Positions 1-31,168 of a stretch of DNA of 31,168 nucleotides are shown here, in pieces. Position numbers and translations under genes: made by a program. Position 1 is the stretch's first letter. Each line of letters begins with the position of its first letter. Under the pieces are notes generated by a model that searched no databases, had not been told where the DNA came from, and worked only from the letters and a program-made list of their open reading frames with translations. Origin of the DNA: a virus; IMG/VR virus record IMGVR_UViG_3300046167_000134, positions 1-31,168 of that record. One strand, written 5' to 3'.

Positions 1-258
1 GTCTACCCCATAGAAGATTTCGTCTTCATCTCTTGGGTCATCCTTACTCACATCAGCAACATCCATAAATAGAATGCTCATTGAGTAGGTAACTCCAATG
101 TCATTGAATGTCACACTATTTATCATAATATGTGACAAGGGGAATATAGTCTGCTTGTTGAGGTCTACATCAAAGATGTCTCCCTCTGTTACGGTGTTCA
201 CCTGCTTATTAGCAATAAGGTGTTCTCGTATCTTTGTGGTAATGTCGTAGAAGCTCAT
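1..258 (-). CDS. Tail completion-like protein, N-terminal 86 residues (gene continues at 31168)
   Basis: The frame starts at the ATG at 258-256 (MSFYDITTK...) and is open through base 1 with no stop. It resumes in the same frame at base 31168 and stops at 30962, giving one 154-residue protein. The N-terminal half has an acidic segment and the pattern DLNKQTIFPLSHI, which I recall from small virion proteins encoded beside gp10-like proteins in Bacteroidota siphophages. The position between the chaperone-like gene and the gp10-like gene suggests a tail-completion or head-tail joining role; this is inferred from order, not from a motif. GTTAAC lies exactly 5 bases before the ATG. The split is an effect of where the circle was opened. 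Confidence 0.85.
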   Translation of the reverse strand, partial: MSFYDITTKIREHLIANKQVNTVTEGDIFDVDLNKQTIFPLSHIMINSVTFNDIGVTYSMSILFMDVADVSKDDPRDEDEIFYGVD

Positions 259-288: not shown

Positions 289-1025
289 TTAAGATAGTTT
301 CATTTGCTTACGCTCTACATCTGCCTTCTCCTTGTCATATACCAATTTAGTAAGGCATTGTCTCAAGGGTAGGTTGGTTATAGAATCATATCTTGCTGCA
401 TCACCACCTGCGAGGTGGTCTACACTACCATACCATCCCCACTTCCTTGAAAAGTTTGCGGAGGCTGAAAGGTCGGTGTTGTCTCCACCTGTGAAGAGGT
501 CGGAGTATTCTTCAATAACTTGTTGCTTAAACGATAAAAAAAAAGCGTTGCACCTAATGCAACATCTAAAGGAAAGTCTGAATATCCATCCGTACCTGTG
601 TACGGCTCTATCTCATACAAGTCCCCCTTATCTTTTGTTATAGGTCTATACAAGACCCCAACTGTCTTATGCAACATATCCATATCGGACAGGTAGTTAT
701 CTAAATCTATGTACTCCCCAAAGCTCATCTCTTCCAGATTAGGAACGAATCCATATTCCTTGCCTCTAAAGGACAATCTCCTAACGAGTGGATGCTTACC
801 ACCTACGATAGATAAGATGTGTTGTGAGATGTCTAATATGTCATCAGCCTTCATAGCATAGGCTACCTTCAATGGGATATTAGCAAATATCTCTATTGCC
901 TTTAGTGTCATAAAGGTTTCATCTCCTTTAACCTTGAGAAACTTTTGGTACTGCTCTATAGTCAGTTCTCTTGCGTTCTCTGGTAGTATAACCTTTACCT
1001 CCTTACCTAACTGCGTATGTTCCAT
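289..1025 (-). CDS. Predicted -1 frameshift product of the chaperone-like gene (about 245 aa, gpGT-like)
   Basis: A -1 slip on the T9 run (544-536) after codon 163 (CTT TTT TTT) enters a frame open to the TAA at 291-289 and adds 82 residues: LSFKQQVIEEYSDLF, then ANFSRKWGWYGSVDHLAGG, then a charged end VERKQMKLS. This extension looks like real protein, with an aromatic KWGWY motif I recall from small proteins next to this family in Bacteroidota phages. The frame contains no ATG, GTG or TTG between the slip site and its C-terminal third, so frameshifting is the simplest route to expression. The alternative is a homopolymer length error. The logic parallels lambda gpG/gpGT, but homology is not shown. 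Confidence 0.6.
420..1025 (-). CDS. Tail assembly chaperone-like protein, zero-frame product (201 aa)
   Basis: The 201-residue zero-frame product starts at an ATG that overlaps the 3' end of TerL by 23 bases. Residues 1-160 look like a conserved soluble domain (LTIEQYQKF near 22-30, EEMSFGEYIDLDNYL near 98-112, VLYRPI near 124). The end is low-complexity Pro/Thr/Gln, finishing GSGDGMVV. Similar proteins occur in Bacteroidota phages without a firm function. A second conserved-looking frame reached by a -1 shift on a T9 run makes a lambda gpG-like role attractive (inference). It lies between TerL and the tail-completion-like gene, with the tape measure further down the same strand. Confidence 0.8.
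   Translation of the reverse strand: MEHTQLGKEVKVILPENARELTIEQYQKFLKVKGDETFMTLKAIEIFANIPLKVAYAMKADDILDISQHILSIVGGKHPLVRRLSFRGKEYGFVPNLEEMSFGEYIDLDNYLSDMDMLHKTVGVLYRPITKDKGDLYEIEPYTGTDGYSDFPLDVALGATLFFYRLSNKLLKNTPTSSQVETTPTFQPPQTFQGSGDGMVV
536..545 (-). promoter_or_regulatory. Candidate -1 ribosomal slippery site (C-T9)
   Basis: On the minus strand the sequence is GCA ACG CTT TTT TTT TAT. It contains the slippery heptamer T TTT TTT in the zero frame, so tandem tRNA-Phe slippage by one base is possible. It is the longest T run within this gene, and the -1 frame downstream encodes a conserved-looking extension. I did not identify a confident stimulatory hairpin or pseudoknot within the next 15 bases. 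Confidence 0.5.
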
Positions 1026-2221
1026 ATGTCTTATTCTTCTTTCTGTTGTAGTTGCATAGAGCCAAGCTCATAACCGTGTCATCGTGTAACCCTGTAGGGT
1101 GTCCGTATCTAATGCTTCGTGTCTTTGGGCTATACTCGTATGTGAAGTAGCTTAACTCGCTATATAAGGGACTGAATAATTCTTTTGATGGTATGTGTAC
1201 ACTCACCTCATTAAAGTCCAATATAAGCCCCTCTATGATTTCATTCTTGCTTTTGTTCGTAGTGACAAAGGGATGGGTATTTGCATACTGACTCTTTATC
1301 TGCTCAAAGATAGGGTCACCTACACCATTGACCTCAACGAGTAAAGAAGCGTTGTACTTGCGTACTCGCTCTACTACCTCCTTAATCATTACACTCCATT
1401 GGTTCTTATTGTCCCTATAGATATCTACAATCCTACCTTTAGAATCCATTAGCGTAAGGACTGTGTAGTCCTCTTGCTTACCAATATCCAATCCTGCGAA
1501 TACCTTACCTTGTGGTTTAGGATATACAGGGAAAGTACATTGGTCTATGTTAGCGAAGACCTCACCACCACCATCTATGAACTCTGCTAAATACTCTTGC
1601 TTGAAGATAGCATCTGGCACTGTTCTCTTGGCATCGTCTATCTCATCTCTTGAAATAAACGGAGTGTCGTAAGAACTGCCCTTATATGATTTGTAGTTAG
1701 GGTAGTCATCGCTCTGCCCATATTGGAATAGTTCGTAGAACCAATTCTTACCTTTAGGTGTAGAGATGAAGAGAACCTTCTTACCTCTTACAAGTAGGGT
1801 CGGCTTGATAGCCTCACTCCAAGCATCGTCTTTAATGAACGCTGCCTCATCTATGATGGCATAGTCCAGAGTCATACCCCTTATGTTGTCGTATCGTTCT
1901 GCACTACGGAAGTAGATGGTACTGCCGTTCTTTAGTTCAAGCTCATTGGTTGAGTAGTTATTAGATTTCACTACACCACTTGCACCTACGGCAGACATCA
2001 GTTCTTTCTGCACCTTATTCGCTTGTGAGTAGACTGGAGACACCCATAGTATTTTACAAGGGCTATTGTTAAAGCCCCCAATACAATGCAAGGTTCATAC
2101 CCATCATAGACTTGCCGAACTGCCGTCCTATAGAAGCTATGTGGTATTTCTCTTTACCCCCTACAATAGATTGTAAGAGTTCTGCTTGAACCTTATGTGG
2201 ACTAAAGCCCGTTACCGTCAT
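1003..2221 (-). CDS. terL: Terminase large subunit, in two frames joined by an apparent +1 shift
   Basis: DNA-packaging motor ATPase and nuclease. The first frame (2221-2069, 50 aa) begins at an ATG overlapping the TerS stop and carries the Walker A-like loop GRQFGKS (residues 32-38); it stops at TAA after YWGL. The second frame (to 1003) continues NNSPCKILWVSP, then Walker B IIDEAAF, the ATPase coupling motif ISTPKG, and RNase H-fold nuclease acidic residues in GLDIGKQEDYT and LHDDTVMS. Skipping one base at 2075-2071 fuses them into about 405 aa, a normal TerL length, so neither half is enough alone. The junction is TGG GGG CTT TAA C, like the prfB +1 site; an extra G in the G5 run would explain it equally well. 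Confidence 0.9.
2069..2080 (-). promoter_or_regulatory. Frame junction in terL: TGG GGG CTT TAA, candidate +1 shift site or 1-base error
   Basis: On the minus strand a G5 run directly precedes CTT TAA C. In E. coli prfB the shift is made at CUU UGA C with a G-rich SD-like element just upstream; here CUU could slip to UUU while the UAA waits for release factor, then AAC is read. Removing one G from the run gives almost the same protein (WGF instead of WGL). Confidence 0.4.
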
Positions 2222-10925: not shown

Positions 10926-11048
10926 TTAGTATTTACCAAGATGTGAGTTAAACTCTGCTTCTTCTTTTAAGTATTCAATTGCAAGGTTGCGATTACCAGA
11001 TGTGTAACTCATCATAGCTTGAATTTGGGCTTCTGTAAAATTAATCAT
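10926..11048 (-). CDS. Small early protein, 40 aa
   Basis: From the ATG at 11048: MINFTEAQIQAMMSYTSGNR, then NLAIEYLKEEAEFNSHLGKY. The longer upstream reading would pass through the promoter, so this start is preferred; it follows GTTAACCAAAACACTTATACA. It has its own promoter and terminator, so it is a one-gene transcript, possibly a host-takeover or regulatory protein. Family unknown. Confidence 0.6.
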   Translation of the reverse strand: MINFTEAQIQAMMSYTSGNRNLAIEYLKEEAEFNSHLGKY

Positions 11049-11076
11049 TGTATAAGTGTTTTGGTTAACAATAGTG

Positions 11077-11105
11077 CTAATGTAAACAAAATAATTAACA
11101 TACAA
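11077..11105 (-). promoter_or_regulatory. Probable early promoter
   Basis: On the minus strand TTG (11105-11103), 18 bases, TACATTAG (11084-11077), seven of eight to TAnnTTTG, about 28 bases before the ATG of the 40-residue gene. It stands immediately downstream of a terminator hairpin (11116-11157), as expected for the first promoter after the late operon. Confidence 0.6.
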
Positions 11106-11115
11106 CATAAATAAC

Positions 11116-11157
11116 AAAAAAAAAGAGGGGAAGTGTCTACAAGACACAACTCCCCCC
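11116..11157 (-). terminator. Intrinsic terminator (second of two in tandem)
   Basis: Minus strand: GGGGGGAGTTGTGTC, a five-base loop TTGTA, GACACTTCCCC, then CTC and nine T. The two stem parts (GTGTC/GACAC and GGGGA/TCCCC-type pairing) are separated by a small internal bulge. The long T tract makes it a convincing minus-strand terminator. Confidence 0.75.
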
Positions 11158-24591: not shown

Positions 24592-25500
24592 TTAACCTAA
24601 TTTAGAAATTTGCTTAACGGCTGATTTTTGTTTTTCAAAAACCTTTTTGTTTTGGTTGTACTCACCTATTTTTTTTGTGTCAACAAGATTACTTAATGGG
24701 ATACCAAGTTCTTTTACTTTAGACTCTAATTCTCTTAAGGCTTTGTCAATAGATGACATATTGCTATCAACATTTTTAACCATTCCATTTAGCGATGAGC
24801 TTACACTTTTTATTTCGCTCTCTAATTTTTTAACACCAGAGTTAAAATCAATTACACCAATAAGAACTTTAGAAAGTATGCTCATCTCAACTTTTATTGA
24901 TTGTTTTCCTATGGCTTCTAAAATAACATTTTTAATGTTATCTAATTTACTTTGCGCTTCTAACTCCTCTGGGTCTTGTTTAGATGCCTCAACCTTGTCT
25001 ACAAAGTAGCCCTCAATACTAAAGCCCTTGACACGACCATTCTTTACATAGTCATTCCAAATCTCATCATTGTGAACCTTCATACTAACCATCCAAGTGC
25101 CTACAGGTAAATTCATACCATACATCTTGCTCTTGTCTTGCTCACCTTCAATAATCCAACTCTCTACAACACTTAATCCTGTGATGTCTATTTGGTGTTC
25201 TAATGTGGCTTTGTTCTGGTTGCCGTTGATGAAGAATAATTCACTTGCCTTTCTAACCGTGTCTTGCGAGAAGTAGATGTAGTATTCATCTTCTCCATTT
25301 CTACGATAGATAGGTTTGTTAGGTACAAGAGCTGCACCCAATAGTACACGCTTGTCCTCATCTATGGTTTTCAATTCTACTCGCTCCTCTTCCTTGAGGG
25401 CTACGAAGTCCTCCTCAATAGCAGGGGACTCTACGATGCTTATAGCTTGGATACCTGCTTGTAGGCTCTCCTCGTCTAATAATAGTTCTACGATTCTCAT
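24592..25500 (-). CDS. XkdF-like prohead protease with coiled-coil extension, 302 aa
   Basis: Residues ~1-190 fit the XkdF-like (Peptidase S78-2) protease: an N-terminal AISIVESPAIEEDFVAL, ATLEHQIDITGLSVVESWII near 98-117 with the catalytic His, and GRVKGFSIEGYFVD near 159-172 with the nucleophile Ser. The last 110 residues are a coiled coil (LESEIKSVSSSLNGMVKNVD), a scaffold-like part fused to the protease. It matures the procapsid, probably cutting scaffold and itself. One-base overlap with the tape-measure-like gene stop. Confidence 0.85.
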   Translation of the reverse strand: MRIVELLLDEESLQAGIQAISIVESPAIEEDFVALKEEERVELKTIDEDKRVLLGAALVPNKPIYRRNGEDEYYIYFSQDTVRKASELFFINGNQNKATLEHQIDITGLSVVESWIIEGEQDKSKMYGMNLPVGTWMVSMKVHNDEIWNDYVKNGRVKGFSIEGYFVDKVEASKQDPEELEAQSKLDNIKNVILEAIGKQSIKVEMSILSKVLIGVIDFNSGVKKLESEIKSVSSSLNGMVKNVDSNMSSIDKALRELESKVKELGIPLSNLVDTKKIGEYNQNKKVFEKQKSAVKQISKLG

Positions 25501-27053
25501 TATGGGAATGATACTTGGTTAATTCTATTTCTGTCTAATTCTTGTTGTGAGGTAACATCGCTTCCTACGACATATGCTCTTACAGGATTGTTTTGTAATG
25601 ACTCTAAAATGGCATTCGCTCCTGTAGACCCTACAATGTTAAAAGATGGAGATTGGGGTTCGGATATGTTACTATCTAAACTCCCAACTCCCCCTCCGAA
25701 TTGCGTGGCTTGTATCGTTTTAATCTGTGCAATACCTGTTGCAAGGGCTATACCTGCCTTCACAAAGTTAGCACCTGTGAGGGCATCTTGAGGTACTGCT
25801 AATTGTGCGGTCACCGCTTGTGCGGTATTCACTACGGCTTGTGCAGTTTGTAGTTTCTTGTTTCTTTCAAATGCTCTCTCGGCAGATGCCTCGTCATCTT
25901 CAGCGAAGGCTTCATTGAGTTGCATAATAGCATCAAATCCTTGAGAGGTTAAATCAAAGTTCTCTTGGATATTGTCTCTACGAAGTTGTGCTTCCTCTGC
26001 TGCATTCTGCTTTTTAAAGGCGGCTAACTCCGCTTCAAGAAGCATCCTTTCACCATAAGCCTCTTGGTACTCAAGAGTGCCTTCTTTTAGTTTAGATATT
26101 TCTTCATCAAGTACATAAATCCTTGCGTTGCCTAATCCTACCTCAAGGTCATATTGTTTTTTAAGGGCTTTCATCTTATTGCCCATAAGAGAGATGTCAC
26201 CCTCTTCTACAATACGAAGTTGCTCTTGTCCTTGCTCGTGAATCATTCGTTTGAGGTCAGCCTCTTCTCTTATTAAAGAGTTCTTATTCATTTGGTATTC
26301 GGACATCTGTCCTTCAATACGCTCTTGAATATCTATCTGCTCGGTCTGGGCTTCTAACAGTTGTAGGTAATTCTCATTGTTAGGATTACGGTCATACTCA
26401 AGTTGAGCAACCTGTAGCTTTTTATAAGCAGCCTCTTCCTCTTTTATTAACTGCTCACCAAGAATACGATTCAACTCTTGATTAGCCGTTATCCTATCTT
26501 GGATACTTAAACGCTCATCGTCTCTTATCTGTCTTTGGCGTTCTGCAAGTATTTGAGATTCTAATTGTAGTTTGTTTCTTTCAGCATCAGCAATCATTGC
26601 AATCTTCTGGAGTTCTACAAACTCCTTTGCTTGTGCCATACTATCTGTAAGGGCTGAAGCAAACTGCGACCAAGACTTATTCTGTATCGCTTGAATAACG
26701 CCATTAAAAGCAAAGATTAAAGTCTGTAGTGCTACCGCAAACGCATCGGTGACACCTTGATTAGACTTACCCACCTCTTTAAATAGTTGGAATCCTTCAA
26801 GAAGAAGACCAATACCTGCTGCCTTGATAGAAAGACCAAGAGTCTTAAACCCTGTTGACATAGAGTCAATACCCTTCTTCGCTTCTTTAGCATTGTCACC
26901 AACATCCTCTACAGATTCAGCAATGTCATCTATACTATCAGCAGTTTTATTGGCTTGTTTTTGAGACTGCTTTAAGAGGTTAATTAACTCTTGTAGCTTT
27001 GCCTCAAGACCAGAGAGGTCTGCACCAATAACTATGTTCTTCTCTATTGCCAT
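25500..27053 (-). CDS. Tape-measure-like protein, 517 aa
   Basis: A long helical protein. N-terminal coiled coil (LEAKLQELINLLKQSQKQAN, then DDIAESVEDVGDNAKEAKKG), a hydrophobic patch (GLSIKAAGIGLLLEGFQLF and AVALQTLIFAFNGVIQAI), Gln/Glu-rich helices to about residue 400, and a C-terminal Ala-rich region (TAQAVVNTAQAVTAQLAV). This is the tape-measure layout, and at about 0.15 nm per residue it would suit a tail of roughly 75-80 nm (estimate). The order of tail before head genes is notable. Confidence 0.7.
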   Translation of the reverse strand: MAIEKNIVIGADLSGLEAKLQELINLLKQSQKQANKTADSIDDIAESVEDVGDNAKEAKKGIDSMSTGFKTLGLSIKAAGIGLLLEGFQLFKEVGKSNQGVTDAFAVALQTLIFAFNGVIQAIQNKSWSQFASALTDSMAQAKEFVELQKIAMIADAERNKLQLESQILAERQRQIRDDERLSIQDRITANQELNRILGEQLIKEEEAAYKKLQVAQLEYDRNPNNENYLQLLEAQTEQIDIQERIEGQMSEYQMNKNSLIREEADLKRMIHEQGQEQLRIVEEGDISLMGNKMKALKKQYDLEVGLGNARIYVLDEEISKLKEGTLEYQEAYGERMLLEAELAAFKKQNAAEEAQLRRDNIQENFDLTSQGFDAIMQLNEAFAEDDEASAERAFERNKKLQTAQAVVNTAQAVTAQLAVPQDALTGANFVKAGIALATGIAQIKTIQATQFGGGVGSLDSNISEPQSPSFNIVGSTGANAILESLQNNPVRAYVVGSDVTSQQELDRNRINQVSFP

Positions 27054-30408: not shown

Positions 30409-30971
30409 CGCTTGGTAAATTTCAAAAATTCATCTACATCCATTGAGATAGCTTGTAGTACCTCTTCTGGTAACTTCTCAAACTCTAATCTAAATGGTGC
30501 TTGGAAGAACTCACTCTTGGGAATCCCTCGTTGCTTAATACTTCTACTTATTAAGAAGGCTGCCGTGTTGAGGTTCGCCTCTGTCTGCTTCACAAAGCTA
30601 TTGGTCTTTAGGTCTCTTGCTTTAACTTTCTTTTGAGCCATCCAAGTACGGATAGAACCCATAGGAGGTTGCTTACCATCAAAACCAAATCTACTTCCAT
30701 TAGGCACTTTGTACTTCGTACCACTAACCCCCTCATCAATATACTTACCATAGTCTTCCATAGTGAAAGACATAAGTAGGTGTACTCCTGTAGTAATGTC
30801 GTAGTCTAAACTATCCTTTAGCTTTCCAGAGGATACTTGTCTTCGTCTCTTTTTCTTACCATCATTGTAAGTAATAGTACGAGTAGCACCAAGATTCAGC
30901 CTCGCTGCCTTGATTACTCTCTCGGCAAACTGCCGTAAGACTCTCTCTGTATTTTGAGTTACTACGGACAA
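30405..30971 (-). CDS. HK97 gp10-like tail/head-completion protein, 188 aa
   Basis: RVLRQFAERVIKAARLNLGA, then SGKLKDSLDYDI and YGKYIDEGVSGTKYKVPNG are typical of HK97 gp10-type minor virion proteins. The start is most likely TTG at 30971-30969, since no ATG precedes the conserved region and the next in-frame ATG comes more than 60 codons later. It overlaps the 154-residue gene by 10 bases. It probably acts in head-tail joining or tail completion. Confidence 0.8.
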   Translation of the reverse strand: MSVVTQNTERVLRQFAERVIKAARLNLGATRTITYNDGKKKRRRQVSSGKLKDSLDYDITTGVHLLMSFTMEDYGKYIDEGVSGTKYKVPNGSRFGFDGKQPPMGSIRTWMAQKKVKARDLKTNSFVKQTEANLNTAAFLISRSIKQRGIPKSEFFQAPFRLEFEKLPEEVLQAISMDVDEFLKFTKR

Positions 30972-31168
30972 GTGGTAATAGTATTAGCAATGTCTATAGA
31001 CAAGGTTAGATTCCAACCTACCAATAGGTTCTCAAACCTATCCTCAAAAGGCTCACAAGATGGTGTGCCATTAAGTTGGTACTTGTCTTGCATTAAGTCA
31101 CCTCTCTTTAAGTTGCTCACCAAATCGTTAGCTACCAGAAGTTGGGTGTTTAGAATGTCGTGTCTGTT
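30962..31168 (-). CDS. Tail completion-like protein, C-terminal 68 residues (gene begins at 258)
   Basis: Open from base 31168 (NRHDILNTQLLVANDLVSNL, then QDKYQLNGTPSCEPFEDRF, ending TLSIDIANTITTCP) to TAG at 30962. No start of its own. Joined to the 86 residues ending at base 1 it makes one 154-residue protein that fits a family of small Bacteroidota phage virion proteins. The in-frame join is the main evidence that the window is a closed circle. Confidence 0.85.
   Translation of the reverse strand, partial: NRHDILNTQLLVANDLVSNLKRGDLMQDKYQLNGTPSCEPFEDRFENLLVGWNLTLSIDIANTITTCP

Follow-up and report, generated by a model that had tools for sequence, protein, structure and literature searches.

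We examined a gene encoded in two frames on the minus strand of a 31,168-base virus record from IMG/VR, the whole of which is referred to here as the window. The gene starts at position 1025, directly after TerL, and its coding strand carries a run of nine T's (T9) at 544-536, in the context ACG CTT TTT TTT TAT CGT TTA AGC. Past this run the zero-frame ORF (1025-420) turns into a Pro/Thr/Gln tail, exactly as a preliminary description of this DNA had noted, and the -1 frame is open from 537 to 292, with a stop codon at 289-291, and reads LSFKQQVIEEY...KWGWYGSVDHLAGGDAARYDSITNLPLRQCLTKLVYDKEK. Along the -1 frame, no ATG, GTG or TTG occurs before a TTG at about codon 58 out of 82, in agreement with the earlier remark that this frame has no early start. 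We refer to the arrangement as the junction and to the gene as the junction gene. The features of the window that are relevant to this work are the following:

1003..2221, minus strand: TerL, disrupted by a private 1-base indel near 2070
537..1025, minus strand: N-domain shared by both predicted products, 163 aa; its start codon overlaps the end of TerL
420..1025, minus strand: short, gpG-like product, 201 aa, i.e. the N-domain with a 38-residue alternative tail
536..544, minus strand (A9 on the plus strand): T9, candidate slip site, zero frame CTT TTT TTT T
500..535, minus strand: dual-coded stretch, about 12 codons read in both frames
289..537, minus strand: -1-frame domain, T-like, predicted C-terminus of the long product, 82 codons and a stop
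1..258, minus strand: first part of the phrog_30964 gene, 86 aa, the next gene past the junction gene
30962..31168, minus strand: second part of the phrog_30964 gene, 68 aa
30405..30971, minus strand: protein matching phrog_29822, neck candidate
25500..27053, minus strand: tape-measure candidate, 517 aa; the window copy matches phrog_32985 and is syntenic with relatives L106 and L152

The junction gene and its place in the genome

The N-domain matches phrog_32199, a PHROG without known function, and its AlphaFold model has a pLDDT mostly above 90; in our scans of homologous loci its relatives reach down to ~25% identity. The -1-frame domain, which would bring the predicted long product to about 245 aa, is modelled as helical (pLDDT 75) and has a KWGWY...LA.GD pattern that is conserved across relatives. 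In the zero-frame model, residues 174–201 of the short-product tail have low model confidence and are predicted to be disordered. The count of nine T's in the window contig itself rests on the relatives described below. A second coding-strand T9 was found at 11116-11124 (minus strand), close to where a short, doubtful ORF (10926-11147) begins, and probably lies in an intergenic stretch.

In the relatives examined, the gene order is TerL, junction gene, phrog_30964, phrog_29822, a protein of ~320-540 aa, a protein of ~700-880 aa, and then the tape measure, a protein of 500-620 aa that matches tape-measure PHROGs in L106 (8e-10) and L152 (2e-10) and is followed by an XkdF-type protease. The ~320-540 aa protein is split into two genes in L120, and in L039 an additional gene follows the junction. 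We take the phrog_29822 protein to be a neck protein like HK97 gp10, and summarise the conserved order as TerL, junction gene, neck, tail and tape measure. The junction gene is located upstream of the tape measure but separated from it by about four genes, instead of sitting immediately between the genes for the major tail protein and the tape measure. Its place after TerL, which the preliminary description had considered unusual, turned out to be the normal and conserved one in this phage group.

The same gene order was observed in the window across its joined ends, which meet without gap or overlap: the two parts of the phrog_30964 gene (86 and 68 aa) are co-linear with the 154-aa protein of L039. 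Because both contig ends fall in one gene and join gaplessly, the window, although recorded as linear, is most simply read as a complete, circularly permuted genome. The TerL gene of the window is split by an extra G at about 2069-2075 (minus strand), with GGGGG where around 30 relatives have one base fewer. Compared with these intact copies, the indel is private to the window contig, either as an error or as a mutation.

Homologous junctions and selection on the T run

We recovered 367 distinct homologous junctions, corresponding to 110 clusters at 70% amino acid identity and 48 clusters at 50%, from IMG/VR, MAGs, flavobacterial prophages and the Nonlabens phages P12024S/L. They belong to a large, mostly marine group of phages with Bacteroidetes hosts. 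One contig of this group (L157) was found in a MAG labelled Epsilonproteobacteria, a label that is likely a binning error because the other hosts are Bacteroidetes. The first scan gave 79 loci, and the matches that reached the junction (37-99% identity) all had T9 at the same point and the same pair of frames; a profile scan added remoter loci, four contigs from MAGs and the Nonlabens phage isolates. The peptide pattern used in one scan included FF, i.e. TTY TTY was required and T9 was not. A query consisting of the -1-frame domain only, blind to both the run and the N-domain, returned 80 loci, all of them with an upstream frame and T9 or T10. Scans seeded with remote members recovered the same layout again, and 397 genomes of the seed's family provided two new prophage copies (L389 and L390), both with T9. 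We did not detect any match in 395 sampled Bacteroidota genomes, except for the seed genome, and a tblastn search of the -1-frame domain against phage records gave no matches.

The run comprised nine T's in 327 junctions, ten in 36, eleven in two, and twelve and eight in one junction each; at least nine T's were thus present in 366 out of the 367 junctions. The -1 frame, seen in the preliminary description as open for 82 codons and apparently conserved, is kept in all 367 junctions, well beyond what chance would give, at about 80-90 codons (80-88 in nearly all relatives). A single continuous frame, named there as an observation that would speak against frameshifting, was found among close homologues only in L343, and perhaps in distant proteins of 234-280 aa; the split layout is otherwise kept. 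L343 (T11) is 99.8% identical to L344 (T12), with 7 mismatches over 4,489 bp, and the only indel between them in these 4,489 bp falls in the T run; the long product of L343 would be encoded in one continuous frame. As this pair shows, some copying step, whether natural or technical, fails to keep the tract stable.

Slippery runs that differ among homologues had been expected at the outset; instead, the run was near-invariant in length and independent of the codon phase. It is divided among codons mostly as NTT TTT TTT T, but also as NNT TTT TTT TT and as TTT TTT TTT followed by C. T9 is hence reached in three codon phases, and where one side is short of a T, the other side makes up for it. In particular, the clusters without an extra T 5' of the heptamer T_TTT_TTT had two extra T's 3' in 5 out of 5 cases (Fisher 7e-5), and those without an extra T 3' had two 5' in 4 out of 5 cases (Fisher 3e-5), both P values ignoring phylogeny, since the clusters compared are phylogenetically non-independent. 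The in-frame heptamer itself was present in all 367 junctions, and replacement of the run by an equivalent heptamer such as T_TTT_TTC was almost never seen in relatives. Runs of at least nine T's were absent from the other coding sequence of the same loci (318 kb), where synonymous shuffling led to an expectation of 5.8 +/- 1.8, and runs of at least nine A's were observed 8 times in the same 318 kb against 26.7 expected. The depletion of T runs was already visible from a length of 6-7 upwards, including T7 and T8; a length threshold at exactly nine is therefore not unique. Judged from these alignments, selection acts on the run length itself and not on the heptamer alone.

We also compared synonymous change on both sides of the run, using pairs of sequences that are 80-97% identical. 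In the -1 frame, the synonymous difference rate was 0.047 over the first 12 codons, followed by 0.22, 0.19, 0.25 and 0.28; the N-domain had a rate of 0.278, which dropped to 0.133 over the final 12 codons. Because synonymous change is suppressed there, about 12 codons past the run appear to be read in both frames, or to carry another nucleotide signal. This dual-read stretch continues a helix in each of the two predicted products (helix 153-172 in the zero-frame model), and the rest of the Pro/Thr/Gln tail of the short product looks free of visible constraint. The earlier suggestion that both products look meaningful is thus qualified for the zero-frame tail, where only the first ~12 codons show constraint.

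Possible routes into the -1 frame

Programmed -1 recoding that gives a short and a long product is, in our view, almost certain at this junction. As for its route, we favour slippage of RNA polymerase over ribosomal frameshifting with moderate confidence, mainly because evolution protects the length of the run and not the heptamer alone; a run that is near-invariant in length in every codon phase points to transcription rather than to translation. Slippage has been described in vivo at runs of nine A or T (review, PMC5009743) and transcriptional realignment at runs of more than eight T's (review, PMC3711429), and a survey of bacterial genomes used runs of nine as its criterion (PMC1088944). 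According to this model, RNA polymerase would slip on the T9 and a fraction of the transcripts would gain one U (10 U); ordinary translation of these transcripts would enter the -1 frame and yield the long product, probably at a lower level than the short one. Loss of a U would instead put translation into the +1 frame, where it would end after about two codons at most. A near-invariant TTTA at 528..531 (minus strand), four bases past the run, serves Phe-Lys/Arg when read in the -1 frame and Leu when read in the zero frame, and makes a +1-frame stop two codons past the run in 332 out of the 367 junctions; any product of a one-base deletion would be cut short by this stop.

The genes known for transcriptional slippage (Shigella mxiE and spa13, Thermus dnaX and some IS elements) likewise have a long A or T homopolymer in the overlap of two frames, and in them too the run length is protected, a stimulator is not needed and such runs are avoided elsewhere; they are bacterial or IS genes, unlike the phage junction described here.

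A -1 ribosomal frameshift at T_TTT_TTT, as in lambda G/GT or P2 E/E', would yield the same products by two tRNA-Phe slipping back by one base, and it is a possible, if less probable, reading. Tail chaperones are usually made in this way (PMC5009743; PMC10885494), and the reading would agree with the heptamer being in frame in every junction and retained in the sole T8 junction (L412), as well as with a depletion of T runs that begins already at T7. Against this reading, the two extra T's are kept in every codon phase, though the heptamer would suffice for a ribosome, whereas a polymerase needs length, and relatives with an equivalent heptamer are nearly absent. Stimulators are usual in ribosomal frameshifting, though not always needed, and no structure or Shine-Dalgarno-like element was found at the junction. 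Minimum free energy z-scores in eight windows up- and downstream of the run, calculated for 76 representatives and for structures free of pseudoknots, had means of about -0.5 to +0.3 (around -0.3), RNAalifold predicted no conserved pair in 16 diverse sequences, Rfam gave no match at the junction, and a Shine-Dalgarno-like motif was located upstream in just 3 out of 74 representatives. The near-invariant bases past the run, for their part, could hide a signal.

It is very unlikely that the -1-frame domain is made independently, as a protein with a start codon of its own and an incidental overlap with the zero frame. P12024S gp39 has been annotated in this way. Nevertheless, apart from codon 0, the first 20 codons contained an ATG, GTG or TTG in only 2 out of 74 representatives, and we rejected an internal start for this lack of start codons; conservation and dual coding, moreover, both begin at the run, and distant proteins seem to hold both domains. 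In particular, seven BFVD viral proteins of 234-280 aa (A0A6J5N0W0, A0A516L5A8, A0A6J5SVK3, A0A6J5N3F3, A0A6J5MY57, A0A6J7XA66 and A0A6J5LWA8) matched both the N-domain and the -1-domain models. According to these model matches, the two domains are probably joined in a single ORF in distant lineages, which speaks for the long product being a real protein and means that the split gene is not universal.

Phase variation, in which replication slippage at the run would turn the long form on in a part of the phage population, is extremely improbable and was rejected on the uniform register: the 99.8% identity of L343, with its continuous long frame, and L344 speaks for it, but the register is the same in all but two of the 367 junctions, and phase-variable tracts vary far more among relatives. 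Finally, an assembly or sequencing error in one continuous gene, to which the private TerL indel of the same contig might point, is barely credible and was rejected for the family, given the identical split in hundreds of independent assemblies, in the isolated phages P12024S/L and in flavobacterial prophages; the preference of the preliminary description for frameshifting over an error thus holds.

A candidate tail-assembly chaperone pair

Polymerase slippage on T9 would give two products that resemble a G/GT-type pair of tail-assembly chaperones, and we consider this role likely because the place of the gene, ahead of the tape measure, is conserved and because of weak structural matches. The N-domain had a fold match to a 191-aa protein of Flavobacterium phage 6H (E 6e-5) in a library of viral-protein folds; its length fits gp10, which is encoded upstream of the tape measure of that phage. 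A weak Foldseek match of the N-domain to an annotated tail-assembly chaperone (E 0.08) and a match to phrog_166 'tail protein' in 3 out of 31 members were also obtained. Searches of Pfam, NCBIfam, PDB sequences and PDB folds gave no useful match for either domain, and no tail-chaperone family. Therefore, of the gpG/gpGT-like pair that had been proposed, the recoding is strongly supported and the pair itself is likely, but no sequence family proves the analogy and the polymerase is favoured over the ribosome as the site of the shift.

The layout predicted here from sequence resembles that of lambda G/GT and P2 E/E', which comprise a short protein and a frameshifted longer form with a common N-domain; in lambda, too, the slippery run is close to the end of the short form and the gene lies upstream of the tape measure in the late operon. 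The junction gene has no detectable sequence kinship to lambda G/GT, follows TerL at a distance of several genes from the tape measure, and has a near-invariant T9 with no stimulator seen, whereas the lambda type uses a varied heptamer. The closest isolated counterpart is the gp38-gp39 pair of Nonlabens phages P12024S/L (Inhavirus; phrog_32199), which is homologous at ~25% identity, comes after TerL and has the same T9 and -1 domain, but was deposited as two hypothetical proteins with the recoding unannotated. Flavobacterium phage 6H gp10 (Duneviridae) has a similar predicted fold and lies upstream of its tape measure, with only TTTTTTC at the corresponding FF, unlike the T9 of the junction. 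In this phage (L240, NC_021867; 9950-10927, minus strand) gp10 ends with CFFYSTR at TTTTTTC, and a possible T-like domain occurs in a different frame, to which no simple slip site leads; the arrangement represents another recoding route or an error.

Our best explanation of the whole, that slippage on T9 makes a pair acting as a tail-assembly chaperone, is somewhat probable. The short form would coat the tape-measure protein, and the long form would bring in the tail-tube protein. The sequences show the conserved split layout, the selection on run length, the dual coding over about 12 codons and the conserved place upstream of the tape measure; we infer that both proteins are made, that the polymerase and not the ribosome slips, and that the pair has this chaperone role. 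The G/GT idea is already known, and paired chaperones made by frameshifting have been described as ribosomal; the near-invariant T9, the likely transcriptional route and the fixed place after TerL appear to be new, and we found no report in the open-access literature that links a tail-chaperone pair to transcriptional slippage. The more general claim, that the two forms of a tail-chaperone pair are set by slippage of RNA polymerase on an obligatory stretch of about nine T's conserved across a large group of Bacteroidetes phages, is evenly balanced in our judgement.

The ribosomes of Bacteroidetes make little use of Shine-Dalgarno signals, and the junction is for this reason a test case for recoding without them. 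A practical rule for annotating these phages is to join the ORF that follows TerL across T9, and this common but poorly annotated group would acquire a tail module of likely function. If the proposed mechanism is true, the chaperone ratio would be fixed at transcription by RNA polymerase and not by the ribosome, and, if polymerase slippage is confirmed, the same protein ratio would be reached by two unrelated recoding routes.
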